Assembly: GCF_900115755.1 (NCBI RefSeq) | Contig: NZ_FOXQ01000002.1 | Location: 124,001-188,000 of the forward strand | Length of the DNA stretch: 64,000 bases | DNA from: Parafilimonas terrae | GTDB taxonomy: Bacteria; Bacteroidota; Bacteroidia; Chitinophagales; Chitinophagaceae | Direction: 5' to 3' | Translations under genes and position numbers: made by a program | The notes under the pieces: generated by a model | Seen by the model: the letters and a program-made list of their open reading frames with translations, nothing else | What the model was told of the DNA's origin: nothing | Databases searched by the model: none | In this document: in pieces, positions 345 to 23,299 of the stretch | How the letters are laid out: each line of letters begins with the position of its first letter | Numbering within the stretch: the first letter of the stretch is position 1

Positions 345-1367
345 GTGGAAAAGAAGGTAGCACTTAAAGACGTAGCGCAACATATTGGCGTATCGGTAGC
401 ATTGGTTTCTTATGTATTGAATGGAAAAGAAAAAGAGGCAAGGGTAGGTGCAGACATGGCAAATAAAATACGGAAAGCGGCTGCTGAATTGAATTACCAG
501 CCAAACCTTATTGCCAAAAGCCTTAAAATGGGCAAAACAAAAACAATTGGGTTGATTGTAGCTGATATCTCAAACCCCTTCTTTTCAACTATAGCAAGAA
601 TTGTAGAAGATGAAGCAAAAAAACACGGGTATGTGGTAATCTTTGGCAGCAGTGATGAAAGCGCAGAAAAGCAGCTTGATTTGATTGACGTATTTTCCAC
701 AAGGCTTGTTGACGCTTTTATTATTGCGCCTGCATCGGGTACAGAAAAACAAATTGAAACCATTGTAAAAAGAGGCATACCTGTTGTTTTAATGGACCGT
801 TTTTTTCCAGGGCTAAAAGTTGATTGTGTTCATATCAACAATTTTAATGCAGCAGGCAAGGCTGTAAAACAACTTATTAAAAATAACCGCAAGAGAATAG
901 GCATGGTGGCTTATGATACAATGCAGTCGCACATGCAGGATAGAAAGCAGGGATATAAAGCGGCATTAAAAGAAAATAGCATCCGTTTTAAAAAACAATG
1001 GCTTGTTGAAGCCAGCTATCAGAATATTGAAAAAGATGTGGCCGCAAAGTTAAAAGCATTACTTAAGCCTTTGCAGGTTGATGCTTTGTTCTTTGCCACC
1101 AACTCGCTGGCTGTTGCAGGTTTAAAAGAAATAAATAAACTGGGCATTAAAGTGCCGGATGATTTAGCTATTATTTCTTTTGATGAAAGTGATGCTTTCG
1201 ATTTTTTCTATTCGCCGGTTACTTATGTGAGCCAGTCGCTTGTTGATATTGGCAAAGAAGCCGTAAAACTTATTTTAAACAGGCTGCATAATAAAAGCAA
1301 AAAAAATGCTGATGTTATTGTAGAAGCCAGGTTGATCGTTCGTGAAAGTTGCGGCAGCAAGCTATGA
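345..1367 (+). CDS. LacI-family transcriptional repressor of the sugar locus
   Basis: A 340-residue LacI/GalR-type regulator starting at GTG. Residues about 4-50 form the LacI helix-turn-helix (VALKDVAQHIGVS, then the hinge helix around NYQPNLIAKSLKMG), followed by a periplasmic-binding-protein-like effector domain starting at TIGLIVADISNPFF. LacI proteins bind near-palindromic operators with a central CG and release on binding a sugar or sugar phosphate. Three identical operator-like sites with a central CG (1464-1478, 8279-8293, 8319-8333) lie downstream in the same locus, so this is most likely their repressor. The effector is inferred to be a product of the pathway (D-arabinose or L-fucose related). 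No operator copy lies in front of its own gene. Confidence 0.93.
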   Translation: MEKKVALKDVAQHIGVSVALVSYVLNGKEKEARVGADMANKIRKAAAELNYQPNLIAKSLKMGKTKTIGLIVADISNPFFSTIARIVEDEAKKHGYVVIFGSSDESAEKQLDLIDVFSTRLVDAFIIAPASGTEKQIETIVKRGIPVVLMDRFFPGLKVDCVHINNFNAAGKAVKQLIKNNRKRIGMVAYDTMQSHMQDRKQGYKAALKENSIRFKKQWLVEASYQNIEKDVAAKLKALLKPLQVDALFFATNSLAVAGLKEINKLGIKVPDDLAIISFDESDAFDFFYSPVTYVSQSLVDIGKEAVKLILNRLHNKSKKNADVIVEARLIVRESCGSKL

Positions 1368-1463
1368 TTGCAGCAGTTCAGGAATGAATTATGAATTCAG
1401 GGAGTAAATGTCAGGGGCTGCCCGCCATTCACAACTAACAACTCAAATTATTTTTTATAGTAA

Positions 1464-1478
1464 GCTTAAACGATTAAA
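1464..1478 (+). promoter_or_regulatory. LacI-type operator O1
   Basis: GCTTAAACGATTAAA, an imperfect palindrome around a central CG as in LacI-family operators. It is identical to the two sites before susC. It ends 44 bases before the preferred ATG (1523) of the DUF6786 lipoprotein, which supports that start over the one at 1481. Confidence 0.8.
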
Positions 1479-1522
1479 ATATGATCAGGAAACGATTGCA
1501 GGTTTATTCATTAAACTATTGT

Positions 1523-2773
1523 ATGAAACTATTTTTTAAAACCTTAATCATTGGGCAGTTTATGATGTTCGCATCTTCGTGTAATAATTCAACTGATAAA
1601 ACGCAAACGGCAGAAGCAAATGATTCATCAAAATATGCGCAGGGAACATTTGGTTACGATTTAAATTTTTTGCAGCAGCATGATAGTGTTATTGTATTAA
1701 AATCAGGTGATAATGCACAGGTAATCGTATCGCCTAAATACCAGGCAAAAGTTTTTACATCAACTGTTGATGGGGAAAACGGTTTTAGTTTCGGCTGGGT
1801 AAATTACAAAGCTTTCAGCGGCCCCGAAGATGCGCACATGAATGCTTATGGCGGCGAAAACCGTTTATGGCTTGGCCCTGAAGGCGGCCGCTTTTCTTTA
1901 TTCTTTAACCCCGGCGATTCAATGGTTTTTGATCATTGGAAAACACCGGCCGCATTCGATACGGAAGTATGGAAAGTAACAGCGCAAACTGACAATAGCG
2001 TTACCATGCAGAAGGATATGCAACTCACCAATTACCATAACACGCCATTGCAATTATCGGTTACCAGGGCGGTTGCTATTTTAAATAATGATGAAATACA
2101 ATCCGGCACCGGCATAACACTGGAAACAGGCGTTAAGGCTGTGGCTTATGAAACAATAAACACATTGACCAACACAGGCAAAGACGCCTGGACAGAAGCA
2201 ACAGGCATGCCTTGTATATGGATATTGGATATGATGAAGAATACGCCGTCAACCGTGATTGTTGTGCCGTATAAAAATGCAAAGGGTGTAAAATTTGAAG
2301 ATGTGGCCACAACAAACTATTTCGGTGAAATACCTGCCGATAGATTAAAGCATGATGATGATAAACTTTTCTTTAAAGCTGATGGTAAAAGCCGTGGTAA
2401 ACTTGGTATTAAACCAAAATATGCAAAACCCGCTATTGGTAGCTATGATCCTGAAAATAAAGTATTGACAATTGCAATGTTTGAGCCCGATGCATCAGCC
2501 AAATATTTAAACCAGGAATGGAATACAATAAAGCCGCCATTTTCCGGCGATGCAGTAAATGCTTATAACGACGGGCCTTTGGCCGATGGTTCGCAAATGG
2601 GCCCTTTCTATGAAATTGAAAGCGTGTCGCCTGCTGCTTTCCTGCAGCCTGATCAATCACTCGTGCATAAACAATCGGTGTATCATTTCACCGGCGATGA
2701 AAAAGCATTAGATGCAATCAGCCAGAAAGTATTAGGCGTGTCTTTGAATGAAATACAAACAGCATTTAAATAA
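1523..2773 (+). CDS. DUF6786-type lipoprotein
   Basis: A secreted lipoprotein of about 416 residues. I start it at the ATG giving MKLFFKTLIIGQFMMFASSC, a lipoprotein signal peptide whose lipobox ends at Cys; an upstream ATG at 1481 would put the operator almost on the start codon and spoil the signal. The body (ENRLWLGPEGGRFSLFF, NPGDSMVFDHW) resembles the Bacteroidota family DUF6786, predicted beta-sandwich proteins with a mutarotase-like look. No catalytic function is established that I know of. Its own LacI operator and its position first in the locus suggest a role in sugar capture or epimerisation in the periplasm; that is inference. Confidence 0.75.
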   Translation: MKLFFKTLIIGQFMMFASSCNNSTDKTQTAEANDSSKYAQGTFGYDLNFLQQHDSVIVLKSGDNAQVIVSPKYQAKVFTSTVDGENGFSFGWVNYKAFSGPEDAHMNAYGGENRLWLGPEGGRFSLFFNPGDSMVFDHWKTPAAFDTEVWKVTAQTDNSVTMQKDMQLTNYHNTPLQLSVTRAVAILNNDEIQSGTGITLETGVKAVAYETINTLTNTGKDAWTEATGMPCIWILDMMKNTPSTVIVVPYKNAKGVKFEDVATTNYFGEIPADRLKHDDDKLFFKADGKSRGKLGIKPKYAKPAIGSYDPENKVLTIAMFEPDASAKYLNQEWNTIKPPFSGDAVNAYNDGPLADGSQMGPFYEIESVSPAAFLQPDQSLVHKQSVYHFTGDEKALDAISQKVLGVSLNEIQTAFK

Positions 2774-2956
2774 GTGAGAGCAAATGGTAATCAATATAAA
2801 TTACCCTGCACTAATTAGTAATGTTTAATGCGCAATACTCAATTAAAAAGAACCTGGATATTGAGTGTTTCTTTAAAATAAACAAGATTGAATTGTAATT
2901 AATTGTTCGGGGTTTCATCACTTACTATTCACAACTCACAACTCACAAATAAGATT

Positions 2957-4732
2957 ATGAATAAACAAACAGATTATCCAAAGATTGGCATTCGCCCTAT
3001 TATTGACGGGCGGTTAGGTGGCATTCGTGAATCACTGGAAGAAACTACCATGAAGATGGCGCAGCATGTTGCTGCATTTTACACAAGCGAATTGCGTTAT
3101 CCCGATGGTTCGCCTGTGCAATGTGTGATAGCAGATACCTGCATTGGCGGTGTGCATGAAGCAGCACAATGCGCAAAGAAATTTGAGCGTAATAATGTCG
3201 GCGTGTCATTATCTGTCACTCCCTGCTGGTGTTACGGAAGTGAAACGATGGATATGAGCCCTCATTTGCCAAAAGCTATATGGGGCTTTAACGGAACGGA
3301 AAGGCCAGGCGCTGTTTATCTTGCTGCAACGCTGGCAGCACATAACCAGTTTGGTTTGCCGGCATTTGGAATTTATGGAAGGGATGTGCAGGATTTAGGA
3401 GATGAAACAATTCCTGAAGACGTAAAAGAGCGCTTGCTGAATTTTGCACAGGCAGGTTTGGCGGTGGCCATTATGCGTGGCAAATCTTATCTCGCCATTG
3501 GTTCTGTATGCATGGGTATTGCAGGCTCAATTGTAGTGCCCGATTTCTTCAGGGAATACCTCGGTATGCGTAATGAATATGTTGATTCAACTGAAGTATT
3601 ACGCCGTATAGAAAAGAAAATTTATGATGAACCGGAATTTGAAAAAGCATTGGCATGGGTAAAGAAAAGTTGCAAGGAAGGCGATGATTTAGCAAATGAA
3701 GAAGGCAAACAATCATCAAGAGAACAAAAAGATAAAGACTGGGAATTTGTTGTAAAAATGACCATGATAATACGTGACCTTATGCAGGGTAACCCGCATT
3801 TAAAAGATAAAGGTTTTGGCGAAGAAGCATTAGGCCATAATGCAATCGTATCTGGCTTCCAGGGCCAGCGGCAATGGACGGATTTTTTACCGAACGGTGA
3901 TTTTTCTGAAGCCATATTAAATTCATCATTTGACTGGAACGGCATTCGTGCGCCTTATACAGTGGCAACAGAAAATGATTGCTTTAATGGTGTGAGCATG
4001 TTGTTTGGATACCTGCTTACCAACACTGCACAAATATTTGCTGATGTAAGAACTTACTGGAGCCCGGAGGCCGTTGAACGCGTAACGGGGTGGAGGCCTG
4101 AAGCTTCAGCGGCCAATGGTTTCATTCATCTTATTAATTCCGGTTCTGCAACACTGGATGGAACAGGGCAACAACAAAAAAATGGCAAACCAGCCATGAA
4201 ACCGTTCTGGGAAATTAATGATGAAGATGCTGATGCATGCTTAAAAGCAACCACCTGGTATCCTGGTGATAAAGGTTATTTCAGGGGTGGCGGCTACTCT
4301 TCAAAATTTGTAACCAAAGGCGGCATGCCGGTAACCATGTGCCGTATTAATTTGGTGAGAGGACAAGGCCCCGTATTGCAGATAGCAGAAGGTGAAACAA
4401 TCGACCTGCCTCAGCATGTTCATGATACATTGGATAACCGTACAAACATCACCTGGCCCACAACCTGGTTTGTGCCACGCATAACAGGCAAAGGTGCATT
4501 TACCGATGTGTATAATGTAATGCTGCATTGGGGCTCTAACCATGGCGCTATAAGTTATGGTCATATTGGCCATAAATTAATAACATTGGCTTCTATGTTG
4601 CGTATTCCGGTTTGTATGCATAATATTGACGAAGAAAGAATTTTCAGGCCCTCCGCATGGAATGCCTTTGGTTCTGAAACGGAAGGCGCCGATTATCGTG
4701 CCTGTGGTAATTACGGGCCTCTTTATAAATAA
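2957..4732 (+). CDS. fucI: L-fucose / D-arabinose isomerase
   Basis: A 591-residue cytoplasmic ketol isomerase, the usual FucI length. It converts L-fucose to L-fuculose, and in the known family equally D-arabinose to D-ribulose, using Mn2+. The N-terminus [20 protein letters not shown] is diagnostic; the motifs [21 protein letters not shown] and [10 protein letters not shown] match the segments holding the Glu, Asp and His metal ligands. The start at 2957 ([11 protein letters not shown]) is preferred over 2903, whose extra residues come from an intergenic CTCACAA repeat. Next to a ribulokinase-type enzyme and GH172/GH116 genes, and with no fuculose-phosphate aldolase nearby, D-arabinose is the likelier substrate (inference). 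Confidence 0.95.
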
Positions 4733-4746
4733 AAAGTAATTGTATT

Positions 4747-4784
4747 AAAATACCCGTGAAAAATATTTTTTGCGGGTATTTTAT
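4747..4784 (+). terminator. Hairpin between fucI and the permease gene
   Basis: Ten-base perfect inverted repeat (AAAATACCCG / CGGGTATTTT) with an A/T-rich loop that is itself self-complementary, 14 bases after the fucI stop. It probably ends or attenuates transcription between fucI and the permease. Confidence 0.7.
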
Positions 4785-4814
4785 AAACGCCATTGAAAAA
4801 ACAAATTTGTACGA

Positions 4815-6104
4815 ATGAAAAATAACAAACCATCACTTTTTGTAAAAGACGGCATTAATTATCTCGGCCCTTTCGCTGCCATCAGCGCTTTGTTTTTTTT
4901 ATGGGGAATAGCGCACGGCATGCTCGACACGCTGGATAAAAACTTCCAGATGATGCTGCATTTGCAAAAATGGGAATCCAGCTTTATCCAGTTTTCCTTG
5001 TATGGCGCTTATTTTGGCATGGCTATACCTGCAGGCATGTTTATAAAAAAATACGGGTATAAAAAGGGCATTATTTTCGGGCTTTCCCTTTTTGCTGCGG
5101 GCGCCCTCATAGCTGCCGGCACAGCCAGTTTTCAATCTTTTGTTTTGTTTTTAATTTGCCTGCTCATTATAGGTGCAGGGCTTGCAACACTTGAAACAGC
5201 GGCTAATCCTTACACAACAAAACTGGGCCCCCCCGAAACGGCAGAACGCCGCATTAATTTTTCCCAGTCTTTCAACGGGCTTGCGTGGATGATAGGCCCA
5301 CTGATCGCCTTATACATTTATGGCAACCAAAGCCACGTGGAAGGTGAAAAAATGATTTCAATCATTCTGCCCTTTGCTATAATAGGGTTGGTTGTTTTAG
5401 CCATCGCATTCGTTTTTATGCGCATAAAATTGCCTGAAATAACAGAGGCGGATGAAATTGCTGCACACGGTGGTGTGGTAACGCAAACTTCAGAAACCGG
5501 TATCGTAACAAGTGTTGACGACCCGGCTTATATATCTCCCAAACCATTATGGAAAAACCGCCATTTCACAATGGGCTTTGCTGCACAGGCATGTTATGTG
5601 GCGGCACAAACAGGCGTTTTTAGTTACCTGATAAATTTTGTTACCGATCACGACATGCACCCGCGTTTTGATGTGGAATATGCACCTTACTTTTTATCGC
5701 TTGGCTTTTTGTTATTTATGATCGGCCGTTTTTCGGGCAGCGCTATGATGAAGTTTTTTAAGCCAACAAAAATGCTGGCGCTTTATACACTTGCGGTTTG
5801 CATTCTTTTACCCATAGTATCGTTTGAAATGGGCTGGGTTTCTCTGATTGCGCTTTACGGTGTTTTCTTTTTTATGTCGATTATGTTTCCTACCATATTT
5901 GCGCTTGCTATAAAATCGCTTGGTCATAATACCAAGGAAGCTTCTTCTTACCTGGTAATGGCAGTGGCTGGCGGCGCAGTGTTTCCGCCGATTATGGGCG
6001 CTGTAGCTGATAACTACGGCATGGCAACAGGTTTTCTTGTGCCCATACCGCTATTCCTGTTTATATTATATTATGCCATTAAAGGGCATAAGGTGTTGGC
6101 ATAA
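4815..6104 (+). CDS. fucP: FucP-type sugar:H+ symporter (MFS)
   Basis: A 429-residue inner-membrane permease of the major facilitator superfamily with about twelve hydrophobic segments. The FucP signature region is clear: FFLWGIAHGMLDTLDKNFQ near residues 27-45, the GxxxGxxxxKKYGYKKG loop near 75-90, and LETAANPY near 125. The E. coli relative imports L-fucose and also D-arabinose and L-galactose with protons. Here it would take up the monosaccharide released in the periplasm by the GH172 and GH116 enzymes. It lies between fucI and the GH172 gene, all in one direction. Confidence 0.93.
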   Translation: MKNNKPSLFVKDGINYLGPFAAISALFFLWGIAHGMLDTLDKNFQMMLHLQKWESSFIQFSLYGAYFGMAIPAGMFIKKYGYKKGIIFGLSLFAAGALIAAGTASFQSFVLFLICLLIIGAGLATLETAANPYTTKLGPPETAERRINFSQSFNGLAWMIGPLIALYIYGNQSHVEGEKMISIILPFAIIGLVVLAIAFVFMRIKLPEITEADEIAAHGGVVTQTSETGIVTSVDDPAYISPKPLWKNRHFTMGFAAQACYVAAQTGVFSYLINFVTDHDMHPRFDVEYAPYFLSLGFLLFMIGRFSGSAMMKFFKPTKMLALYTLAVCILLPIVSFEMGWVSLIALYGVFFFMSIMFPTIFALAIKSLGHNTKEASSYLVMAVAGGAVFPPIMGAVADNYGMATGFLVPIPLFLFILYYAIKGHKVLA

Positions 6105-6195: not shown

Positions 6196-8142
6196 ATGAG
6201 GTTAATCTTTTTATGTAGTTTGTTATGTGCTGCAACAGGGTTATGTGCACAAAAAACGGTTACCGCTGTTGATGAGTTGAAGCAATTTTATAATATTAAT
6301 GAATTGCCGGCATATCGCTCAAACACTTATGCAGCGCAGGTTTCAACGTATGATACCACTGGTGGTAACAATGATGGTTTTGGCGGGCAATATTCTTTTA
6401 TAAGAAGAAATGCAGACAGCAGCCTTGTGATTTTTGACGTTAAAGGAACAGGTGTTGTTAACCGCATCTGGACGCCAACACCAACTACAGATACACTTGA
6501 TTTTTATATTGATGATGCAAAACAGCCAACACTCTCCATTAATTATATGGATCTTTTCTCTGGTAAGGTTTACCCGTTTGTGCAGCCGCTTTGTGGTAAC
6601 CAGGTTGGAGGTTATTACTGTTACTTTCCTATTCTCTTTCAAAAACATTGTGTGATTGTTAGCAGGGGAAAGAAAATGATGTTTCATCAAATTGGTTACA
6701 GGTTGTATAATAAAGGAACTATTGTTGAACCTTTCACCACGAACATTGGTGATGATGTGAAAAATGCATTGAATGCAATCAGCGGTTTATGGAACAGTAA
6801 CGAAGTGCATAAAGCAAAAGCAATTGCAGCCAGCAATGCCGGTACAAAAATTACTGATACGTCTTTTTCCATCAAGCCCGGCGATACAAGACAGGTATTT
6901 GCATTGAATACCGGCGGCAGAATTACAGGTATTGAAATCAGTCCTTCCAGCAGTTTTGCATCACTGTATAAAAACATCATTATGCGTGTGTTTTGGGATG
7001 ATGAAAAACTGCCGGCTATTGATTGCCCCGTTGCAGATTTCTTTGGCTTTGCATTTGGGAAGCCTTCCATGCAAAGTTTGCTGGCCGGTTCAGAAAATAA
7101 TATTTGTTACAGTTTTATTCCAATGCCTTTTGATAAAAAAGCGCGTATTGAATTTAGTTATGTGAATGCAAAAGACAGTGCGTTAGCAAGCGTTGGCCTG
7201 CACGCAAAAATTTATTATACACTTCAGCCGCGGAAAGCTGATAAGGAAGGAAAATTTTATGCATATAGAAACAGTGAAAAAACAAAAGATGGGCAACCGC
7301 ATGTTTTTTTAAACATACAAGGCAAAGGGCATTATATAGGCACTGTATTACAGGCACAAGGCTTACATACAGGTATGACCATTTTTTTTGAAGGTGACGA
7401 TTCTACAGTTATCGATAATACCATGCGTTTTCATGGCACTGGTTCCGAAGATTATTTTAATGGCGGCTGGTATGCATTGTTAAACCGCTGGGATTCAAAA
7501 ATGAGTTTGCCATTGCATGGCGCTTTGGATTATTCACTGGCTTTTGCAAGAACGGGCGGCTATAGGTTTTATTTCACAGATAAAATGTCGTTTGAAAAAA
7601 ATATTTATCACAGCATAGAACATGGTGGCGAACACAATGCGGTGCCCGGCTTATATACTTCTGTAAGTTATTTCTATTGCGACAGGCCACAGCAGTTATC
7701 ATCATCCATTACGAATGAAAATACGAAGGTTTACATACCTGATACCATCAATATCTACCCGCAATTTTCCAGTGTTGAAATAGGTTCAGACATGAATATT
7801 AAAACAGTGTGGGATAATAATGATATAGGACAGAGTTTTGATATAACAGCGCCTGACAACGGCATGCTGAAAGTGAACCTGGGTGATATACCTGCGGGTT
7901 ATTATAAACTTTTTATTTCTTATGCAAAGCAACCGGGAGGCTGTGATTTTTCTATCTGGCAGCGCCAAACACAAATTGCAGGCTGGCATTCATCTTCAGC
8001 AAATGACAAACAAAAAGTAAAAGACATGTTTGCAGGCGATATTCATATAACAGAATTGAATAACGCTGCAACTATTCAGTTTAAGACGGCAGGCGAAGCA
8101 AATAAGTTTTTATGGATTAAAATGATGTTGGTAAAAAAATAA
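6196..8142 (+). CDS. GH172 (DUF2961) glycosidase, secreted
   Basis: A 648-residue secreted protein with a Sec signal peptide (MRLIFLCSLLCAATGLCAQ). Residues about 60-400 show the DUF2961/GH172 fold signatures: GTGVVNRIWTPTPTTDTLDFYID, YCYFPILFQKHC, and MRFHGTGSEDYFNGGWY near residue 415. GH172 includes difructose-anhydride enzymes and exo-alpha-D-arabinofuranosidases that act on mycobacterial arabinan. With FucI (D-arabinose isomerase activity), a ribulokinase and two GH116 enzymes in the same locus, alpha-D-arabinofuranosidase is my favoured activity. A C-terminal beta-rich domain (about residues 510-648) may bind carbohydrate. Difructose-anhydride or inulobiose hydrolysis is the alternative. 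Confidence 0.88.
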   Translation: MRLIFLCSLLCAATGLCAQKTVTAVDELKQFYNINELPAYRSNTYAAQVSTYDTTGGNNDGFGGQYSFIRRNADSSLVIFDVKGTGVVNRIWTPTPTTDTLDFYIDDAKQPTLSINYMDLFSGKVYPFVQPLCGNQVGGYYCYFPILFQKHCVIVSRGKKMMFHQIGYRLYNKGTIVEPFTTNIGDDVKNALNAISGLWNSNEVHKAKAIAASNAGTKITDTSFSIKPGDTRQVFALNTGGRITGIEISPSSSFASLYKNIIMRVFWDDEKLPAIDCPVADFFGFAFGKPSMQSLLAGSENNICYSFIPMPFDKKARIEFSYVNAKDSALASVGLHAKIYYTLQPRKADKEGKFYAYRNSEKTKDGQPHVFLNIQGKGHYIGTVLQAQGLHTGMTIFFEGDDSTVIDNTMRFHGTGSEDYFNGGWYALLNRWDSKMSLPLHGALDYSLAFARTGGYRFYFTDKMSFEKNIYHSIEHGGEHNAVPGLYTSVSYFYCDRPQQLSSSITNENTKVYIPDTINIYPQFSSVEIGSDMNIKTVWDNNDIGQSFDITAPDNGMLKVNLGDIPAGYYKLFISYAKQPGGCDFSIWQRQTQIAGWHSSSANDKQKVKDMFAGDIHITELNNAATIQFKTAGEANKFLWIKMMLVKK

Positions 8143-8275: not shown

Positions 8276-8307
8276 TTTGCTTAAACGATTAAATTAATAT
8301 AAGTTTG
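8276..8307 (+). promoter_or_regulatory. Bacteroidota promoter of susC
   Basis: TTTG at 8276-8279, a 20-base spacer, then TAAGTTTG at 8300-8307, matching the Bacteroidota -33/-7 consensus (TTTG, TAnnTTTG). Operator O2 fills the spacer and O3 starts 12 bases past the -7 box, so bound repressor would block initiation. The predicted leader to the susC ATG is about 230 bases. Confidence 0.8.
8279..8293 (+). promoter_or_regulatory. LacI-type operator O2
   Basis: GCTTAAACGATTAAA, identical to O1 and O3. It lies between the -33 and -7 elements of the susC promoter. Confidence 0.85.
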
Positions 8308-8318
8308 AGGTATATTTT

Positions 8319-8333
8319 GCTTAAACGATTAAA
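8319..8333 (+). promoter_or_regulatory. LacI-type operator O3
   Basis: Third identical GCTTAAACGATTAAA, exactly 40 bases from O2 (about four helical turns, same DNA face), at or just after the expected transcription start. Confidence 0.85.
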
Positions 8334-8544
8334 CGCCATGCCTCATGAAATTTTACCTGTTGATTATTTAGCGGAAGGTCTTGCTGAAAATTATTTCCCT
8401 GATTCGGTGGATTATAATAAAGAAAGGATTTAATTCTCTGCAAATAGGTTAGGCTTCGCTTTAAATATGCATAGTTCAATAACTGTGTACAGTAGTTCTT
8501 TTGCTTTATCATTTTATATTTTCTTTAAAACAAAAAACAACGCT

Positions 8545-11500: not shown

Positions 11501-11595
11501 TTAATACTTATCCGGGATGGGACCCTGAACAAAGTATTAATGGCGGATATCCGATGCCTCGATCTTTTTATGGTGGTATTAATGTGCAATTCTAA
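8545..11595 (+). CDS. SusC/RagA TonB-dependent glycan importer
   Basis: A 1016-residue outer-membrane transporter of the SusC type. After the signal peptide (hydrophobic stretch ending FLFAQ) come a carboxypeptidase-like beta-sandwich domain (STVTGKVTDENAAPLAGATVKV), a TonB-box region (DVVVVGYGTQ), the plug (LAGVQIIQNNG, RIRGTGSFG, LKDAASAAIYGSRGANGVVIVTTKKG) and a long beta-barrel. It imports oligosaccharides bound by its SusD partner using TonB energy. I choose the ATG at 8545, which still gives a long n-region; an in-frame ATG at 8467 would lengthen it implausibly. Controlled by the O2/O3 operators. The substrate is inferred to be the locus glycan (D-arabinan-like). Confidence 0.95.
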   Translation: MGSLLKMQPMFLQCLLHFGTAIKKTFFIAVSLVCFQSFLFAQQSTVTGKVTDENAAPLAGATVKVSGSNTAVATNADGTFSISASKGQTLEITYVGKMDEQVTIGDNRSLNITLKDYTDTGLNDVVVVGYGTQAKKDLTGSIGVVSQAKMENQATVGIGQNLQGKLAGVQIIQNNGTPYSGTQIRIRGTGSFGASSNPLIVIDGMITNDGLANLNPNDVENITVLKDAASAAIYGSRGANGVVIVTTKKGNFEAPMKVNFSAYAGVDQVRYKIPTLTAKQYAVQVNDYYGAANLPQPFTQEEISSYGKGTNWVDEITQSGFKQDYSLSIYGGTKNNAYAIAVDYFDGQGVIKNTNFKRGNIKISDDSRILPNLKLGISLNVNYGVSNNTDWGQAIDRALIFPPTEPVYDANGDYSAAIHNGEPVTMLNPLIAVNLWKYKQTWKKLLGTTYLEWDIFKDLKFKTSLNAEYYGWNQDHFIPAYTFGPAGLIGDHPIAELYEDQNENINYEIDNILTYTKRINQDHNLTVMAGYTFQQTNGSNLSASRNDFLNNDPNMQVIDAGNSNISNGGNKYAWAIQSYLGRINYAYKDKYLLSSSLRIDQTSRIASNHRRGVFPGASAGWVISKEKFFENVSAVNNLKLRASWGILGNQDIGTYPYQTTLNSTGLYYPFGAGGDGTTYTGVGPTSLGNPNIRWEKTSTYGAGLEASFLNNRLSFIADYYKRNTSDILVQIPLLATSGVDNAPYQNAGSVSNTGIELTLGYSDQIGKSFKYDVSINWTHNKNIVTKVPSPIVNDFSQTTIGNSINEWYGYVQQGIFQTQDEIDKAPTQPNAAPGDIRFKDLNNDGVINASDRTFLGFAVAPNTYGGSISMSYKGFDLVTSFYGQSGAVRSIDQVGFAITRGGEQTSAWMYNQRWTGEGTSNYVPRVVAGDPNDNYRRSTFWLRSSDFFRLQNLQIGYDFTGLLDSKAANVIHKLRFYIAAQNLFCINTYPGWDPEQSINGGYPMPRSFYGGINVQF

Positions 11596-11614
11596 ACAGA
11601 GTAAAATAATAATC

Positions 11615-16500: not shown

Positions 16501-16652
16501 ATTGTGATAAAAAACCTGCTGTTATAAAAATGCTTATTAATGGCAAGCCTGTTAAAAATAGTTTTTCATACGAAGAAAATACAGCTTCTGTCAGGTTTGA
16601 TAATATTTCATTGCAGGCTGATGATAATGTTGATATATTGATCTCTTATTAA
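13533..16652 (+). CDS. GH116-family glycosidase, Sec-secreted, with inserted lectin-like module
   Basis: A 1039-residue enzyme with a Sec signal peptide (MKHIFLIICFFSIAAITFSQ). The N-terminal beta domain shows PCGGIAAGQLYVRGDGTLANWW; the helical catalytic domain ends with VWTGIEYQVA and NEIECGDHYARAMASWG. By family comparison the nucleophile is Glu590 (WAWEG) and the acid/base Asp704 (NTYD); both are present. Just after Glu590 lies a CxGTCTH motif. Residues about 263-405 are an extra module (FENGYGKWKVTG, IGGGRHATTTCINLIVDG, GWGHVTLDDIGF) like the lectin-like domains attached to many GH32 enzymes. GH116 covers beta-glucosidase, beta-xylosidase and exo-beta-D-arabinofuranosidase activities; context favours the last. 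Confidence 0.88.
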   Translation: MKHIFLIICFFSIAAITFSQPVDPSHHVPENKNLPASWKTSLYNNQKKVFKGDELLTIGMPCGGIAAGQLYVRGDGTLANWWIYNNAYNTGYGIDSLTHFNTALGPWTVCYKTFEPKSYIDQGFNIKITQDGKTTNVNLNKKDFDDISFVGEYPIATINYNSTTKKLPVAVSSEVYSPFIPMNAKESATPGTILKYTVKNNSSKPVQVSLSGWLQNFVCLDIAKDILANRRNAIVRNDGITSLVMGLTRAEKTGAEKKPTIKLFDDFENGYGKWKVTGDAFGSAPTNGSFENQGRIVGFNGKGVVNSYIDEDKTTGKMVSETFTVNDDYIVFKIGGGRHATTTCINLIVDGNIVRTATGANTELMSDKYWDVKELKGRQAHFEIVDEDKGGWGHVTLDDIGFSDMPVTKEKYYPEHHPYFGNVSLSILSNNAFGDADYKDFNDNTKSATASATAIDKINGSVGESFSLQPGQSKEVIFLLTWYFPNRPSYYFGSDLTDILPNDWNEALPTDGATIIGNMYSNWFNNSHDVALYLQKNYSRLSKLTHLFHDTYYNNTTIPYWLNQRLLMPLSTLATETCQWWANDKFWAWEGVGSCVGTCTHVWNYEQALAHFFPELERNIRERTDFDVSFQKDGSVLARNGWGGVLIDGHAGAILKAYREYLNSKNNLFLNRNWDRIKRATEFIINEDGNEDGLIEKVQANTYDIAFYGANTYVGSLYLAALKAAAAMASVMNDTAFAQRCSTIAQAGENNTVKRLWNGEYFVQDVDLKAHPEYQYKDGCLSDQLFGQTWNHLNNLGYIYPKEKVKQTLESIWKYNWAPDVAVQNKIHPPERTYASFGEPGLLVCTWPKSEHMGEKGVRYRDEVWTGIEYQVATNMIYDNMVDEALSIVKAVDKRYSPEKHNPWNEIECGDHYARAMASWGVMLALEDYYYNGPQGVISFNPKIQPSHFEGFFTTAEAWGNIKQDIQNNQQKNSIVLKYGNLALQQIQLHCDKKPAVIKMLINGKPVKNSFSYEENTASVRFDNISLQADDNVDILISY

Positions 16653-16684
16653 AAGGAAATTTATTAGCTGTTAATATTTTGCTT

Positions 16685-18337
16685 ATGAATAAAGCTTATG
16701 TTATTGGTGTTGATTATGGAACGGATTCGGTGCGTACCATAATCGTAGATGCATATAACGGTGCTGAAATTGCCGCTTCAACATTTGAATATCCGCGATG
16801 GAAAAAACAACTCTATTGTAATGCAGCCATCAATGAGTTCCGGCAACATCCGCTGGATTATATTGAAGGTTTGGAATTTACAATAAAAGAATGCCTGCAA
16901 AAAGCAGGCGATGATGTTCCTAACAATATCAAAGCTATTTCAATAGACACTACAGGTTCTTCTCCCATCGCCGTTGACGAATCAGGAACGCCGCTGGCAT
17001 TGCATGAAAACTTTGCAAACGATCCTGATGCCATGTTTGTTTTATGGAAAGATCATTCATCTGCACCGGAAGCAGAGGAGATTAATCAACATGCAAAAGA
17101 ATTCAATATTAATTACCTGAAATATGTTGGCGGCATTTATTCATCTGAATGGTACTGGAGTAAACTGCTGCATATTTTACGGGTGAATAAAAAAGTAAAA
17201 GATGCATGCTATAGCTGGGTGGAACATGCTGACTGGATGCCTTTCTTATTAACCGGCGGCAAACATATCAGCGAAATGAAACGCGGCGTTTGCACCGCCG
17301 GTCATAAAGGCTTGTGGGCGGAAGAATGGAATGGTTTTCCTCCGGAAGAATTTTTCACGTCGTTAGACCCGCTGTTGGCTGGTTATGTTTCCAGGCTTCC
17401 ATCAACAACTTATACCGCAGATAAACCTGCGGGTAATTTGTCAAAAGAATGGGCTGCTGCATTAGGTTTATCAACCAATGTAATTGTGGGCATTGGTGCA
17501 ATGGATGCACACATGGGCGCTGTGGGTGGGCAAATAGAGCCTTATTATTTAAGCAAGGTAATGGGCACTTCCACCTGCGATATGCTAGTGGCGCCTGTTA
17601 AAGACATGCAGGGCAAATTTGTACAAGGTATTTGCGGATTGGTAAATGGTTCTGTTATTCCCGGCATGATTGGTATGGAAGCAGGACAGTCTGCATTTGG
17701 CGATGTGTATGCATGGTTCAAAAATTTATTGTCGTGGCCTTTGCAGCATCTTGCAGAAGATGTATTGAATGAAAGCGCCATAAAATCAATCACCGATAAA
17801 ATAATCCCTGCATTAAGCAAACAGGCATCTGTGATGCCTTTGCATGAACACAATGAATTAAGCCTCGATTGGTTTAATGGCCGCCGTACACCAAATGCGA
17901 ATGCGTTATTAACAAGTACCATCACCGGTTTGGATTTAGGCAGTGATGCAGTAAAAATATTTCATTCTTTAGCCGAAGCTACCTGCTTTGGCGCGAAGGC
18001 AATTGTTGAATGTTTTATTAATCAAAATATTCCTGTTAAAGGATTGATAGGCATTGGCGGCGTTGCAAAAAAATCGCCATTCATTATGCAAATGATGGCC
18101 GATGTGATGAACATGCCTATCAAAATAAATAAATCGGGGCAAACATGTGCTTTGGGTGCGGCTATGTTTGCAGCTACTGTTGCCGGCATTTATAATAAAG
18201 TTGAAGATGCTATGCAGGCAATGGGGCAGGGATTTGATGTTGAATATTATCCTGATAAAAATAAAGTTGACATCTATCAGCATCGCTATAAAAAATACCT
18301 TGAATTAGGTGGTTACGTGGAAAAAAATATTGCATAA
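16685..18337 (+). CDS. AraB-type FGGY ribulokinase
   Basis: A 550-residue cytoplasmic kinase of the FGGY family. The N-terminal phosphate-binding segment (YVIGVDYGTDSVRTIIVDAYNG), the AraB-specific insert (KDHSSAPEAEEIN, SSEWYWSKLLHILR) and the C-terminal GIGGVAKKSPFIMQMMADV motif identify the ribulokinase branch, not the L-fuculokinase or xylulokinase branches. It should phosphorylate L- or D-ribulose on O5. With FucI making D-ribulose from D-arabinose, the product would be D-ribulose 5-phosphate, which enters the pentose phosphate pathway with no aldolase or epimerase. I start at the ATG 16685 rather than the TTG six bases earlier. It lies between the two GH116 genes. Confidence 0.88.
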   Translation: MNKAYVIGVDYGTDSVRTIIVDAYNGAEIAASTFEYPRWKKQLYCNAAINEFRQHPLDYIEGLEFTIKECLQKAGDDVPNNIKAISIDTTGSSPIAVDESGTPLALHENFANDPDAMFVLWKDHSSAPEAEEINQHAKEFNINYLKYVGGIYSSEWYWSKLLHILRVNKKVKDACYSWVEHADWMPFLLTGGKHISEMKRGVCTAGHKGLWAEEWNGFPPEEFFTSLDPLLAGYVSRLPSTTYTADKPAGNLSKEWAAALGLSTNVIVGIGAMDAHMGAVGGQIEPYYLSKVMGTSTCDMLVAPVKDMQGKFVQGICGLVNGSVIPGMIGMEAGQSAFGDVYAWFKNLLSWPLQHLAEDVLNESAIKSITDKIIPALSKQASVMPLHEHNELSLDWFNGRRTPNANALLTSTITGLDLGSDAVKIFHSLAEATCFGAKAIVECFINQNIPVKGLIGIGGVAKKSPFIMQMMADVMNMPIKINKSGQTCALGAAMFAATVAGIYNKVEDAMQAMGQGFDVEYYPDKNKVDIYQHRYKKYLELGGYVEKNIA

Positions 18338-18364
18338 TTCATAATAACATTAAAATCATTCTGT

Positions 18365-20992
18365 ATGGACAAGTTTCAAAAACGCCGCTCGTTTCTAAAA
18401 TCTGTTGTGCTTGGTGGAACAGGCATTGCCGTTAGCCCGGGTATAATAAGAGCAGAAGATACAACTGCTGAAATATCCCATAACGTTGAACAAAAAAATA
18501 TTCCTGCACCTGCAAGAAAATATAATACGCCATATACAGGTGAATATTTAAACCGTATTGCTTTTCCGATTGGGGGCTTAGGCGCAGGCATGTTTTGCCT
18601 CGAAGGCACCGGCGCTATTTCGCACATGAGCATTCGTAACAGGCCGGAGATTTATAACGAGCCCTCTTTATTTTCTGCTATTGCCATTAAAGGTTTAAAG
18701 AATGGTGTTAAAGTATTGGAAGGCCAGGTGCCAGACTGGAAGATGTTTGGTGCAAGAGGAACAGGCAACGGCGCAGCAGGTACCACGTATGGCTTGCCGC
18801 GTTTTCAAAATGCAGAATTTAAAACACATTTTCCTTTTGCGACTATCCAGTTGCAGGATGATGATATTCCTTTGCAGGTTTCCGTTAAAGGCTGGAGCCC
18901 TTTTATTCCAACAGATGAAGACAACAGCAGCCTGCCTGCGGGCGCCTTGGAATACACTTTCACCAATAAAACAACGCAAAGTTTTGAAGCTGTTTTTTCA
19001 TTCAATACAAAAAATTTTTTAGCGAATGCGGATACTGCAGTTAATAAAATTACTGGCATTACTAATGGGTTTGTATTGAAACAGGACGCTGCAAAAGATA
19101 AGCCCGAAACAGAAGGCAGCTTTGCTGTGTTTGCAGATGATGATAAAACAATTGTTGACCATTGCTGGTTTCGCGGTGGCTGGTGGGATCCGTTAACGAT
19201 GGCGTGGAATACAGTGCACGATGTGAAAACAAGGGCCGCTGATGTTGTTGAAAAAGATGCGCCGGGTGCATCATTATTTGTGCCTTTTACATTGGCAGCG
19301 GGGGCGTCTAAAACAATTAAGTTAATGATGACGTGGTATATCCCGGAAACAGCGATGCATATTGGTGAAATTGTTTTGGATGAAAAGAAAGATTGCAGCT
19401 CTGAAAGCGGATGTTGTGCGGCGCCTGAAGATTTAGGCGTAACGAATGGAAAGAAAAACCCTTCATCAAATTATAAACCCTGGTATAGCAGCCGTTTTGC
19501 AAATGTTGAAGAAGTGGCCGATTACTGGAAAAAGAATTACAGTGATCTGCATTCAAAATCAAAATTATTTTCTGATGCTTTTTATGCAAGCACGCTTCCG
19601 CCTGAAGTAATGGAAGCTGTTGCGGCCAATCTTACTATATTAAAATCACCAACTGTTTTGCGTCAATATGATGGCAGGTTGTGGGCATGGGAAGGTTGCG
19701 GTGATGATGGCGGTTGCTGTCATGGTTCCTGCACGCATGTTTGGAATTATGCGCAGGCTATGTGCCATCTTTTTCCAACGTTGGAAAGATCATTGCGCAA
19801 TACAGAATTTTGCGAGAACCAAAATAAAGTCGGTCACCAGGGTTTCAGGGCTAATCTCCCAATCAGCCCTTTAAAACATGATTTTCATGCGGCATCAGAC
19901 GGGCAGTTGGGCGGCATCATGAAAGTGTACAGGGAATGGCGCATAAGCGGCGATAATGATTGGCTGCGCAGAATATATCCCGTTGTAAAAACAAGCATGG
20001 ATTATTGCATTGCAACGTGGGACCCTGCAGGCAAAGGCGTGGTTGAAGAACCGCACCATAATACGTATGATATAGAATTTTGGGGGCCTGATGGCATGAT
20101 AACATCTTTTTATCTTGGCGCATTAACTGCCATTGTTTTAATGGGTAAACATCTAAATAAAGATGTAAGCAAATATGAAGATTTGTATAAGAAAGGTAAG
20201 GTGCAGCTTGAAACAAATTTGTTTGATGGAGAATATTTTTTCCAGGATATTGAATATAAAAACCTGAAAGCGGAGAACCCGGCAACAGCGCAATCGTTTG
20301 GCGGTAATTATTCTGCTGAGGCAATAGAAATTTTAAAACAGGAAGGCCCGAAATATCAATACGGCAAAGGCTGTTTGAGTGATGGTATTTTAGGCGCCTG
20401 GATTGGCAGCATGTGTGCATTGCCAACGTTTGTTGATGATAAAAAAGTAAGCAGTCATTTACTGGCTATTCATAAATACAATTTAAAAACTTCGTTGAAA
20501 GAACATGCTAACCCGCAGCGGCCTGCGTATGCTTTAGGCGATGAAGGCGGCCTGCTTTTATGTACATGGCCGAAAGGTGGTAAGCTGTCATTGCCGTTTG
20601 TTTACAGCGATGAAGTATGGACGGGTATTGAATACCAGGTGGCAGCACATCTTATGGAAATGGGCCACGTGCAGCAGGGTTTGGATGTGGTACAACTATG
20701 CCGCAGCCGTTACGATGGTAAGGTGCGTAATCCTTTCAACGAATATGAATGCGGCCATTGGTATGCGCGTGCCATGAGTAGCTATGGCATGTTGCAGGCT
20801 TTAACCGGTGTGCGTTATGATGCGGTTGATAAAACATTGTATGTTGATTCAAAGATTGGTGACTTTACTTCTTTCCTTTCAACGGCAACAGGTTTTGGAA
20901 CGGTGAGTTTTAAAGCGGGCAAGGCTTCTGTGAAAGTTTTGTATGGAAAAATTGATATTGATAAAACGGTTGTTGGCAATAAAAAAGCTTAA
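18365..20992 (+). CDS. GH116-family glycosidase, Tat-exported
   Basis: An 875-residue paralogue of the enzyme at 13533. The N-terminus has a twin-arginine motif (RRSFLK, residues 7-12) followed by a hydrophobic stretch, so it is probably exported folded through Tat. Family signatures: IAFPIGGLGAGMFCLEGTG, VWTGIEYQVAAHLME, NEYECGHWYARAMSSYG. Expected nucleophile Glu443 (WAWEG) and acid/base Asp569 (NTYD) are present. The site is rich in cysteine (GCGDDGGCCHGSCTHVW), and there is another cluster, DCSSESGCCA, near residues 345-354. The last base overlaps the first base of the SlyD-like gene, showing one transcript. Activity inferred as exo-beta-D-arabinofuranosidase or another beta-glycosidase. 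Confidence 0.87.
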   Translation: MDKFQKRRSFLKSVVLGGTGIAVSPGIIRAEDTTAEISHNVEQKNIPAPARKYNTPYTGEYLNRIAFPIGGLGAGMFCLEGTGAISHMSIRNRPEIYNEPSLFSAIAIKGLKNGVKVLEGQVPDWKMFGARGTGNGAAGTTYGLPRFQNAEFKTHFPFATIQLQDDDIPLQVSVKGWSPFIPTDEDNSSLPAGALEYTFTNKTTQSFEAVFSFNTKNFLANADTAVNKITGITNGFVLKQDAAKDKPETEGSFAVFADDDKTIVDHCWFRGGWWDPLTMAWNTVHDVKTRAADVVEKDAPGASLFVPFTLAAGASKTIKLMMTWYIPETAMHIGEIVLDEKKDCSSESGCCAAPEDLGVTNGKKNPSSNYKPWYSSRFANVEEVADYWKKNYSDLHSKSKLFSDAFYASTLPPEVMEAVAANLTILKSPTVLRQYDGRLWAWEGCGDDGGCCHGSCTHVWNYAQAMCHLFPTLERSLRNTEFCENQNKVGHQGFRANLPISPLKHDFHAASDGQLGGIMKVYREWRISGDNDWLRRIYPVVKTSMDYCIATWDPAGKGVVEEPHHNTYDIEFWGPDGMITSFYLGALTAIVLMGKHLNKDVSKYEDLYKKGKVQLETNLFDGEYFFQDIEYKNLKAENPATAQSFGGNYSAEAIEILKQEGPKYQYGKGCLSDGILGAWIGSMCALPTFVDDKKVSSHLLAIHKYNLKTSLKEHANPQRPAYALGDEGGLLLCTWPKGGKLSLPFVYSDEVWTGIEYQVAAHLMEMGHVQQGLDVVQLCRSRYDGKVRNPFNEYECGHWYARAMSSYGMLQALTGVRYDAVDKTLYVDSKIGDFTSFLSTATGFGTVSFKAGKASVKVLYGKIDIDKTVVGNKKA

Positions 20993-21348: not shown

Positions 21349-21409
21349 AATTCAAAAGAAGAAACCCTTTAATTGAAGCAGCCTTTTTACTTTTAAATTT
21401 TGAATTGAT

Positions 21410-22474
21410 ATGAAAGTGCATTTAATAAGTGGTTTTCTTGGCAGCGGCAAAACAACAGCTATTCAAACTGCCTGCAAAGTACTGATGGCAGAAGGATTGA
21501 ACGTTGGCGTTATTACAAACGACCAGGGTATAAAACTGGTGGATACTGGCTTTTTCGAAAGCCATTCTATTCCAAACCGGCAGGTTATCAACGGATGTTT
21601 CTGCTGCAATTATAATGCGCTGGATGAAAATATTCAATCGCTTATTCAAACCAATAGCCCTGATGTAATTTTTGCAGAATCAGTTGGCTCATGTACAGAT
21701 ATTGTTGCAACTGTAATGAAACCTTTATTGCAATTCAGGAACGATGTAACAGTAACAGTTTCCACCTTTGTTGATGTGCAATTGCTCCACATGCTTTTTG
21801 TTGAAAAGAAGCATGTATTTAATGAAGAAGTGCAATACATCTATCAAAAGCAACTGGAAGAGGCAGAAGTGATTGTTGTTTCAAAAATTGATCTCGCAGA
21901 TGAAAAAACATTGAGCAGTGTCCGGTATTTTTTGAAAGATCAATTTCAGGACAAACAGGTTATTTATGTAAATGGCACTGATGATGAAAGTACAACAGAA
22001 TGGTTAGATGTTATAACCAGCAAAACAAATCATTTTATTCCATCTTCACTTGATATTGATTATCCCACTTATGGCGCCGGGGAAGCAATGCTGGCCTGGC
22101 TGGATGCGGAATTAAAAATCGACAGTAACATTAACAGCGCGCAACAAACAGCCATACAACTTGCGAAACAGATTTATAAAAATGTACAGAATGAAAAATT
22201 AACCATTGGGCATTTAAAATTTTTGATTGATGATGTAATTAAAATAAGTTATACCGCTTCAGGTAATGAAACTATAGTAAGCGAGGCCTGTAATGCAGGC
22301 GCAGCCTCCATTTTGATAAATGCCCGTATTCAAACAACACCGGTATTTCTAAGTTCTCTTATTAACAGGGCAATTGAGCAAACAGAAAAAGAAAATAACT
22401 GTATTGTGGTTAAAGAAAAATTTACAGCATTCCAGCCCGGTTATCCAGCGCCAACACACAGAATTATGGTTTAA
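21410..22474 (+). CDS. G3E (COG0523/CobW-like) metal-chaperone GTPase
   Basis: A 354-residue cytoplasmic GTPase. Walker A is GFLGSGKTT (residues 8-16), the G3E metal motif CxCC is C63-F64-C65-C66 (NGCFCCNY), the Walker B/ES-x-G region is DVIFAESVGSC, and the base-recognition motif is SKID in place of NKxD. COG0523 proteins deliver Zn, Co, Ni or Mn to target enzymes. It sits in the sugar locus between the SlyD-like gene and the SDR gene; plausible clients are the Mn-dependent FucI or the cysteine-rich exported enzymes, though folding in the cytoplasm before export is clear only for the Tat enzyme. The client is inference. Confidence 0.87.
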   Translation: MKVHLISGFLGSGKTTAIQTACKVLMAEGLNVGVITNDQGIKLVDTGFFESHSIPNRQVINGCFCCNYNALDENIQSLIQTNSPDVIFAESVGSCTDIVATVMKPLLQFRNDVTVTVSTFVDVQLLHMLFVEKKHVFNEEVQYIYQKQLEEAEVIVVSKIDLADEKTLSSVRYFLKDQFQDKQVIYVNGTDDESTTEWLDVITSKTNHFIPSSLDIDYPTYGAGEAMLAWLDAELKIDSNINSAQQTAIQLAKQIYKNVQNEKLTIGHLKFLIDDVIKISYTASGNETIVSEACNAGAASILINARIQTTPVFLSSLINRAIEQTEKENNCIVVKEKFTAFQPGYPAPTHRIMV

Positions 22475-22519
22475 AGTTGCTGCAAACAGTCAAACTGTTA
22501 TCTTGCATTTTTTTTTACT

Positions 22520-23299
22520 ATGGAGCTTGATTTAAACAGTAAAATAATAATCGTTACCGGCGGCGCAAGAGGTATTGGTGAAAGCATTGTAAGAAAACTT
22601 GCTGATGAGAATGCTATTCCATGTATCATTGATATAAACCGGCAACTGGCTGATGAACTTGCAAATGCTTTGCAGCAGGAAGGTAAAAATTGTTTTGTTG
22701 CTATTGCAGACTTAACAAATCCAGGGCAATGCAAAAAAGCTATTGATGACATTATTAATGAGTTTGGGCATATTGACGGTGTTGTGAACAATGCCGGTTT
22801 AAATGATGGCGTGAGCCTTGAAAACGGCACGTATGAAAAATTTATACAATCGCTGAAAGTGAATGCTGCCCACTATTTCAGCATTACACAATGTGCATTA
22901 GATGCTTTAAAAACAAGTAAAGGAAGTGTTGTAAATATCTGTTCAAAAGTGGCGCAAACAGGGCAGGGCGGCACATCGGGTTATGCTGCTGCCAATGGCG
23001 TTCGGTTTGGGTTAACAACACAATGGGCGAAGGAACTTGCATCTTTTGATATTCGTGTAAATGCAATTGTAGTGGCAGAATGTTATACACCGCAATATGA
23101 CTGGTGGATTAAACAACAGCCTAATCCTGAAGCATCACTTAATGCCATTATATCCAAAATTCCCTTTGAACAAAGAATGACATTGCCGGATGAAATTGCG
23201 GATACTGCTATCTTTTTATTATCGTCAAAATCAAACCCAATTAACGGAGAATTTTTTTATGTTGATGGCGGGTATGTTCATTTAGACAGAAGAGTATAA
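22520..23299 (+). CDS. SDR-family sugar dehydrogenase-like protein
   Basis: A 259-residue short-chain dehydrogenase/reductase. The cofactor site TGGARGIGES (residues 13-22), NNAG near residue 90 and the catalytic-region Ser (NICSK) are present. The usual YxxxK is YAAAN, so the catalytic lysine position is Asn; the segment TGQGGTSGYAAANG recalls a branch related to L-fucose/D-arabinose dehydrogenases. The likely role is oxidation of a pentose or 6-deoxyhexose, or a side path in the same sugar catabolism. It is the last gene of the plus-strand locus, followed by a hairpin at 23312. Confidence 0.8.
   Translation: MELDLNSKIIIVTGGARGIGESIVRKLADENAIPCIIDINRQLADELANALQQEGKNCFVAIADLTNPGQCKKAIDDIINEFGHIDGVVNNAGLNDGVSLENGTYEKFIQSLKVNAAHYFSITQCALDALKTSKGSVVNICSKVAQTGQGGTSGYAAANGVRFGLTTQWAKELASFDIRVNAIVVAECYTPQYDWWIKQQPNPEASLNAIISKIPFEQRMTLPDEIADTAIFLLSSKSNPINGEFFYVDGGYVHLDRRV

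Follow-up and report, generated by a model that had tools for sequence, protein, structure and literature searches.

The window analysed here is a 64,000-nucleotide stretch of Parafilimonas terrae DNA (contig C28, positions 124001-188000; the genome totals 4,985,410 bases over 44 contigs), and it carries genes of what is very probably a LacI-controlled polysaccharide utilisation locus (PUL) for D-arabinofuranosyl (D-Araf) glycans. D-arabinose is an unusual sugar of mycobacterial cell walls. A sequence-only reading had assigned positions 345-23299 to D-arabinan utilisation rather than to L-fucose, and this is supported by the grouping of two enzymes, GH172a and GH116b, with ExoMA1 and ExoMA2 respectively, by a shared operator, by the gene sets of related loci and by the absence of fuculose-phosphate aldolase (FucA) from the genome. 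Those bounds were too small: the locus reaches about 8 kb upstream of the window on the same contig, where the strongest evidence for D-arabinan sits and where the locus begins with genes for SusC1, SusD1, X373 (a protein of 373 amino acids that matches no family), GH172a and a thioredoxin-like protein. Systems of this kind were first described in 2023; the novelty here lies in a version free of GH183, in an operator that its modules share, in the swapping of metabolic branches and in two conserved, uncharacterised partners, DUF6786 and X373. Upstream coordinates are given on the stretch L009 (C28:104501-124500; window position equals L009 position minus 19500), and the letters L, G and C mark loci, genomes and contigs.

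Exo-enzymes and operator of the locus

Genes were identified with Pfam/NCBIfam-type family models and their bit-score cut-offs, and related solved structures by PDB profile matches. All genes named in the sequence-only reading are present on the + strand, each confirmed by family models, and the two window genes that it had not listed (DUF6786 and a CobW-type GTPase) lie on the same strand. GH172a (L009 18098-19255, or C28:122598-123755), found by a genome-wide GH172 search, ends about 250 bases before the window. It matches ExoMA1 (8ic8) at E 7.7e-131 and alphaFFase1 at 1.1e-40, and in a tree of 39 rows with several long branches it shares with ExoMA1 a 20-row clade (100/100) that excludes alphaFFase1. 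GH172b, the DUF2961 protein inside the window (6196..8142, 648 aa; PF11175, PDB matches E 1.4e-24 to 8.4e-15), falls in a separate clade of five rows (100/100), together with the copies of L062, L069, L071 and L103, which are loci of similar make-up, and with no characterised rows. In both proteins the catalytic motifs of DgGH172c, Glu and Glu-Asp (E233 and E254-D255, chain numbering), are retained. At the position of the fructofuranose-blocking Asn253 of ExoMA1, the residue is Asp in GH172a, Tyr in GH172b and Gly in alphaFFase1. The GH172 that groups with ExoMA1 is the upstream enzyme, not the one in the window that the sequence-only reading had named.

The GH116 enzymes GH116a (13533..16652, with a signal-peptide-like N-terminus by sight) and GH116b (18365..20992, with a twin-arginine-like N-terminus, RRSFLK, by sight) match ExoMA2 (8ic6) at E 1.8e-92 and 4.9e-106, compared with 1.2e-25 and 1.1e-9 for their best beta-glucosidases. 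In a tree of 22 rows, from which eight near-copies were omitted and in which the TxGH116 row is a fragment on a long branch, GH116b and ExoMA2 belong to a 17-row clade (100/99); GH116a lies outside it, in a separate and more distant clade with GH116 enzymes of the Planctomycetota X373 loci L096 and L099 (96/99). The columns of ExoMA2 Glu431, His446, Arg483 and Asp557 (published numbers shifted by 4 onto the PDB chain, which fits all four letters) hold E, H, R and D in both GH116a and GH116b, the Arg column of GH116a adjoining a gap, and TxGH116 is comparable only at the fourth, Asp557. Judged by sequence, GH116b is a probable exo-beta-D-arabinofuranosidase. In these two family trees, which the sequence-only reading had proposed, the enzymes fell in neither difructose-anhydride nor beta-glucosidase branches. 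A further weak GH116 match in the genome, at C28:297192, is a rhamnosidase-like protein.

A LacI-type operator, GCTTAAACGATTAA, links both SusCD modules and the FucI operon. This 14-mer was derived from a 12-base match common to three intergenic regions, and six exact copies occur in the locus: at window 1464 (1464..1477, before DUF6786), at 8279 and 8319 (within 8279..8332, upstream of SusC2), and at L009 11386, 11453 and 11519. When a 17-mer was searched with up to three mismatches, the window gave 4 matches against 0.94 expected (a number reached in 1/100 shuffles) and L009 gave 4 against 0.24 (0/200 shuffles); TTAAWCGWTTAA had 3 occurrences in the window against 0.06 expected. In 411,254 bases of the same genome outside the locus, the 14-mer had no occurrence at one mismatch or fewer and three at two mismatches, and the 12-mer matched once in 430,254 own-genome bases. 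Exact 14-mers were also present in the same-genus loci L167 and L168 (four each) and in L023 and L026 (two each), loci with the oxidative D-arabinose genes described below, while none was found at two mismatches in the oxidative loci L171, L172 and L173. The LacI-family regulator (345..1367; PF00356/PF13377), whose relatives are 43-88% identical in 9 of the 13 related loci examined, would be the protein that binds GCTTAAACGATTAA.

Gene content and related loci

The upstream run comprises SusC1 (L009 11765-14953), SusD1 (L009 15004-16743), X373 (L009 16878-17999), GH172a and, last, the thioredoxin-like gene (L009:19325-19798, + strand), the 3′ end of which occupies window 1..298. After the LacI gene come DUF6786 (1481..2773; PF20583, 552 bits), which has a lipoprotein-like N-terminus by sight, the L-fucose/D-arabinose isomerase FucI (2903..4732; NF008220, 1086 bits, cut-off 775; TIGR01089 also over cut-off), and a FucP-like sugar:H+ symporter of the MFS type (4815..6104; TIGR00885, 274.4 bits, slightly below the cut-off of 280.4). 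GH172b is followed by the TonB-dependent transporter SusC2 (8467..11595; PF07715, PF00593) and the glycan-binding protein SusD2 (PF07980). SusD2 as listed (11477..13210, TTG start at 11477) overlaps SusC2, and its true start probably lies downstream, after 11595. An AraB-type ribulokinase (16679..18337; NF003154, 686 bits, cut-off 428; TIGR01234 L-ribulokinase, 571 bits, slightly below 583) stands between GH116a and GH116b. The importer, isomerase and kinase are thus present by family models (SusCD pairs, FucI, ribulokinase), and their specificity for D-arabinose is predicted; FucI enzymes are reported to act on D-arabinose in a part of PMC6894278.

Two further genes are of uncertain membership, each preceded by no operator copy: the CobW-type GTPase (21410..22474; PF02492) and a short-chain dehydrogenase (SDR) of the L-fucose dehydrogenase type (22520..23299; NF052481, 343.5 bits, cut-off 300). 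The sequence-only reading had counted the SDR as part of the locus, a placement that the operator does not support, and we rejected it as a regulon member; SDR relatives do occur inside oxidative-branch loci. Homologues of the GTPase, 40-46% identical, were found in 3/80 X373 loci (L071, L072, L075), and as a guess it perhaps supplies metal to FucI. The gene just upstream of SusC1 (L009:967-10638, C28:105467-115138) encodes a 3223-aa protein with three Laminin_G_3 stretches; its type IX secretion tail scores slightly below the cut-off.

Related loci share much of this gene set. GH172a-DUF6786-FucI-FucP-kinase-GH172-X373-SusC1-SusD1 forms one run in L054, L062, L069 and L071, followed by GH116b in L054, L062 and L071. 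The L051 locus of Chitinophaga ginsengisegetis DSM 18108 carries GH172a, GH116 and X373. In G400, of the same genus, the order in L167 is SusC1-SusD1-GH172a-thioredoxin-LacI-DUF6786-FucI-FucP-GH172b-kinase-GH116b; X373 is lacking, and the SusC2-SusD2-GH116a block was not seen in the 20-kb L167 stretch, so that X373 and this block may have been inserted into an older locus in P. terrae or lost in G400. SusC1/SusD1 relatives (42-84% identical) were found in 8 of the 13 related loci, with a partial one in L180, and no SusC2 relative in the 13 exceeded about 33%. Several relatives stand beside GH183: those of X373, GH172, LacI, SusC1 and SusD1 adjoin a true GH183 gene (E 9e-96) in G716, those of X373, SusC1 and SusD1 do so in G502 (GH183 at E 2e-97; GH172 and LacI are missing from that stretch), and GH172a, X373 and GH183 are consecutive in L117. 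In the Actinomycetota loci L112 and L118, GH116, a FucI-like gene (its Pfam score passing the cut-off in L118 alone) and X373 are consecutive; the L118 GH116 scored 1348 bits against ExoMA2, and the L112 GH183 612 bits against the solved endo-alpha-D-arabinanase 8hhv.

Chitinophaga and Pseudobacter loci have genes for an aldehyde dehydrogenase (ALDH), an SDR, a UxaA/GarD-type dehydratase and an FAH protein in place of the FucI-kinase pair. A part of PMC6336799 describes the UxaA/GarD-type enzyme as D-arabinonate dehydratase and the FAH-type enzymes as KDP dehydratases. This dehydratase-FAH pair, the bacterial D-arabinonate set in that part of PMC6336799, was present in 12/80 X373 loci (three of the 12 being source loci of the references or near-copies) and in 4/20 further GH172a loci. 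By blastp, 8/80 X373 loci had FucI, 12/80 the dehydratase and 0/80 both; the first count excludes divergent FucI-like proteins of L112, L118 and L099, seen by Pfam only and over cut-off in L118 alone. Among the 20 further GH172a neighbourhoods, hand-picked from 110 positive genomes, eight had FucI, four the dehydratase and FAH, and eight neither. The two metabolic branches, FucI with a kinase and the oxidative D-arabinose set, look exchangeable. An ExoMA1-type GH172 was found at E 1e-60 or better in 110/394 genomes of one Bacteroidota family, and since 12/20 neighbourhoods had FucI or the oxidative set, the trait may be common in that family. The genome of L087 (G797, an unclassified bacterium) has nine GH172a-query matches at E 1e-30 or better. 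The UxaA-type gene of P. terrae itself, at C28:305333, was rejected as a D-arabinonate gene; it stands beside UxaC and a mannitol-type dehydrogenase and belongs to the altronate route.

Alternative substrates

Several findings weigh against a D-arabinan function. The GH172 enzyme inside the window is outside the ExoMA1 clade, and finding GH172a is not in itself proof of such a locus, since 8/20 GH172a neighbourhoods lack both FucI and the oxidative set. Six GH29 matches over cut-off elsewhere in the genome could feed L-fucose to FucI. Lastly, GH183 above cut-off is missing from the genome search, bar the DUF4185-like tail of a GH92 protein, so the substrate may be something other than the intact polymer.

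The sequence-only reading had noted the absence of an endo-D-arabinanase of family GH183 and had suggested that one might lie elsewhere; the absence from the locus stands, while a genome-wide search yielded no dedicated copy. PF13810 gave three matches in the P. terrae genome, none of them over cut-off; the same model reached E 1e-97 (G502) and 5e-96 (G716) in related genomes. When proteins were scanned whole, one of the three, a GH92 mannosidase that carries a fused DUF4185/DUF5005-like domain (L010:9835-13167), reached 42.8 bits (cut-off 39.5), and the other two matched DUF5005 rather than DUF4185. We read this as the genome having no dedicated GH183 copy, with an unrecognised endo-enzyme being possible. 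The cell would then probably scavenge fragments released by others, or its own endo-enzyme has escaped recognition. A somewhat doubtful variant, which does not exclude the D-arabinan reading, is that the substrate consists of short D-Araf decorations on other bacterial pili, lipopolysaccharide (LPS) or exopolysaccharide rather than of mycobacterial or corynebacterial arabinan. Such decorations would need no endo-enzyme, consistent with the genome lacking a dedicated GH183, and a part of PMC10115798 names the pilin D-Araf oligosaccharides of Pseudomonas aeruginosa PA7 and some LPS as sources. However, other members of the same family (G502, G690) have GH116/GH172a relatives close to GH183, and the two SusCD pairs would suggest sizeable oligosaccharides.

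An improbable reading is that of a dual L-fucose/D-arabinose locus, in which FucI, FucP and the SDR would mainly serve L-fucose released by GH29 enzymes encoded elsewhere and D-arabinan would be secondary. It draws on those six GH29 matches, on the match of the SDR to the L-fucose dehydrogenase model, on FucI being the sole copy found in the genome (PF07881, 1 match), and on a dehydratase-FAH pair on C32 that is a possible L-fuconate route. The lack of a fucosidase that the sequence-only reading noted thus holds for the locus but not for the genome. However, fucosidase and fuculose-phosphate aldolase models had no matches among the scanned locus proteins, and FucA was not found in the rest of the genome either, since the two class II aldolase matches are AraD and an RhaD-SDR fusion. 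The locus kinase is AraB-type rather than a fuculokinase (TIGR02628, 39 bits, cut-off 471), which together with the absence of FucA argues against an L-fucose locus of the fucPIKA type. A second AraB-type kinase, 64% identical, is encoded near AraD on contig C19, so the locus kinase appears to be a spare paralogue, as would be expected for D-ribulose. Moreover, the genes that bear the operator accompany the ExoMA1/ExoMA2-type enzymes, and the operator is absent before the SDR and from 60 kb around the C32 pair. At L188:6518-8511, an EcoO109I-like restriction enzyme and a C5 cytosine methylase adjoin the FAH-dehydratase pair of that stretch.

It is highly improbable that the GH172 enzymes cut alpha-D-fructofuranosides (difructose anhydride) and the GH116 enzymes beta-glucosides, activities that exist in these families (alphaFFase1 and TxGH116, in a part of PMC10509167), given the clade of GH172a with ExoMA1 and without alphaFFase1, the Asp or Tyr in place of the alphaFFase1 Gly, and the far stronger matches of both GH116 enzymes to ExoMA2 than to beta-glucosidases.

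DUF6786, X373 and known D-arabinan systems

DUF6786 is predicted to adopt the aldose-1-epimerase (mutarotase) fold. A model of the window protein built from 20 aligned members (pLDDT 89.9) had aldose 1-epimerases as its best PDB matches in Foldseek (3k25, E 1.8e-10; 3nre, E 1.9e-10), and Glu331, Glu333 and His355 are invariant. Compared with aldose 1-epimerase/YeaD mutarotases, DUF6786 has the same modelled fold but only about 10% identity and a lipoprotein-like export signal. A periplasmic mutarotase role would fit, because the exo-enzymes release furanoses, whereas the forms that the transporter and the isomerase accept are probably different ones. DUF6786 was not named in the literature searched.

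For X373, one scan of genome contigs gave 113 relatives. Eighty of them were retained, and blastp at 1e-6 against references built for this analysis served to score their neighbours. GH172, GH116 or GH183 was present in 34/80 X373 loci, in Bacteroidota, Actinomycetota and Planctomycetota (some GH172 assignments, namely L086, L096, L099 and the x-type one of L117, rest on 27-32% identity); 24 loci had both GH172 and GH116, 21 had DUF6786 and four had GH183 (L069 at 27% only). Among X373 loci of at least 20 kb the proportion was 28/54. In an X373 tree of 76 rows, without partial rows and three near-copies, this neighbour label needed 13 changes against 25.2 when shuffled, though near-copies favour such clustering. 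Within the 394-genome family draw, GH172a was found in 7/8 X373-positive genomes and 103/386 others (Fisher p 0.0007, relatedness ignored). The 12-mer of the operator occurred in 20/26 Bacteroidota X373 loci with GH172, GH116 or GH183 in the examined stretch and in 1/25 without; that one locus, L108, has SusC/SusD 42/45% identical to SusC1/SusD1. Other findings speak against a D-Araf role for X373: 46/80 loci have none of the three enzymes as neighbours, L106 and L114 also hold GH59 and GH2 genes near X373, and the 12-mer lies within 500 bases upstream of X373 in 0/51 Bacteroidota loci. For 30 of those 46 loci the genomes were searched, and a GH172a relative was found elsewhere (E 1e-30 or better) in 22 and in none of the remaining eight. 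An Alistipes metagenome-assembled contig carries two X373 genes in tandem (L104:1025-3205).

Searches with 66 X373 members gave only chance-level Pfam matches (two members or fewer each), no NCBIfam match and a best PDB profile E of 0.58, and PHROGs matched 0/5 members. A model of the L054 homologue (66 aligned members; pLDDT 95.0, pTM 0.93) consists mostly of strands with few short helices, and Foldseek against PDB returned no match at E 0.001 or better; the 50 matches listed include mutarotase-like beta-sandwiches (GalM, GH38, GH92, beta-galactosidase) and copper amine oxidases, at TM 0.41 or below. All 66 members share 17 invariant polar or aromatic residues, including Glu69, Glu80, Glu236, Glu310 and Glu313 (L054 model numbering). 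With hhalign probabilities of 0.2-0.3, the idea that X373 is a diverged form of GH183, GH172 or DUF6786 was rejected. It is not favoured as a GH183 substitute, since it also stands beside GH183, nor is it an obligatory component, since 103 GH172a-positive genomes of the 394 lack it. The role of a SusCD surface glycan-binding protein is likewise not favoured: many Bacteroidota members have an ordinary signal-peptide-like start, and the six actinobacterial members have no hydrophobic N-terminal stretch, like the adjoining GH172 and GH116 (N-termini of 17 loci were judged by sight and 9-residue hydropathy, without SignalP). A lipoprotein-like Cys in L106, L114 and perhaps the P. terrae X373 speaks the other way. 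An enzyme seems likelier than a binding protein, because X373 appears to share the compartment of the exo-enzymes. We tentatively suggest that X373 could be a new family of D-arabinofuranoside-processing enzymes in Bacteroidota, Actinomycetota and Planctomycetota, acting in that compartment and perhaps cutting a linkage or cap beyond the reach of GH172, GH116 and GH183, and that with X373 and the DUF6786 mutarotase some bacteria could consume D-Araf glycans without any GH183.

The observed gene content, clades, conserved residues, operator sharing and conserved neighbourhoods, with the predicted folds, are consistent with a route for which substrates, flux, compartment and inducer are those we infer. 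SusC1/SusD1 and SusC2/SusD2 would import D-Araf oligosaccharides, from which, in the periplasm, GH172a would remove alpha-D-Araf and GH116b, with GH116a, beta-D-Araf; GH172b and X373 may act on the same glycans. DUF6786, as a putative mutarotase, would accelerate the change of the released furanose into the imported form, the FucP-like symporter would take up D-arabinose, FucI would convert it to D-ribulose, and the AraB-type kinase would yield D-ribulose 5-phosphate for the pentose phosphate pathway. DUF6786 and X373 can now be tested for a part in the turnover of mycobacterial and corynebacterial cell-wall sugars, and they might serve as tools for analysing the structure of arabinogalactan and lipoarabinomannan.

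Two papers of 2023 identified the endo-D-arabinanases and the dedicated exo-D-arabinofuranosidases, in few organisms. According to a part of PMC10115798, the D-arabinan PUL42 of Dysgonomonas gadei encodes two GH183 endo-D-arabinanases, whereas none was found in the genome here; all three D. gadei GH172 enzymes have arabinofuranosidase activity on arabinogalactan, with a table row of "weak" for DgGH172b, whose size of about 73 kDa (half the dimer mass) is close to that of the 648-aa GH172b. The Microbacterium arabinogalactanolyticum D-arabinan PUL (ExoMA1, ExoMA2, EndoMA1/2), as described in a part of PMC10509167, shares with the P. terrae locus an exo-alpha GH172, an exo-beta GH116 of subfamily 4 and a putative isomerase and kinase. 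It differs in having a putative ABC importer, exo-enzymes without signal sequence and GH183, where P. terrae has SusCD pairs and exo-enzymes predicted to be exported. The non-phosphorylative D-arabinose Route II, in a part of PMC6336799, uses UxaA/GarD-type and FAH-type dehydratases, which are seen with ALDH and SDR genes in relatives from Chitinophaga and other Chitinophagaceae. In the P. terrae locus, by contrast, FucI and a kinase take that place and the SDR alone adjoins, and the D-arabinose dehydrogenase of Route II is an aldo/keto reductase, not an SDR.

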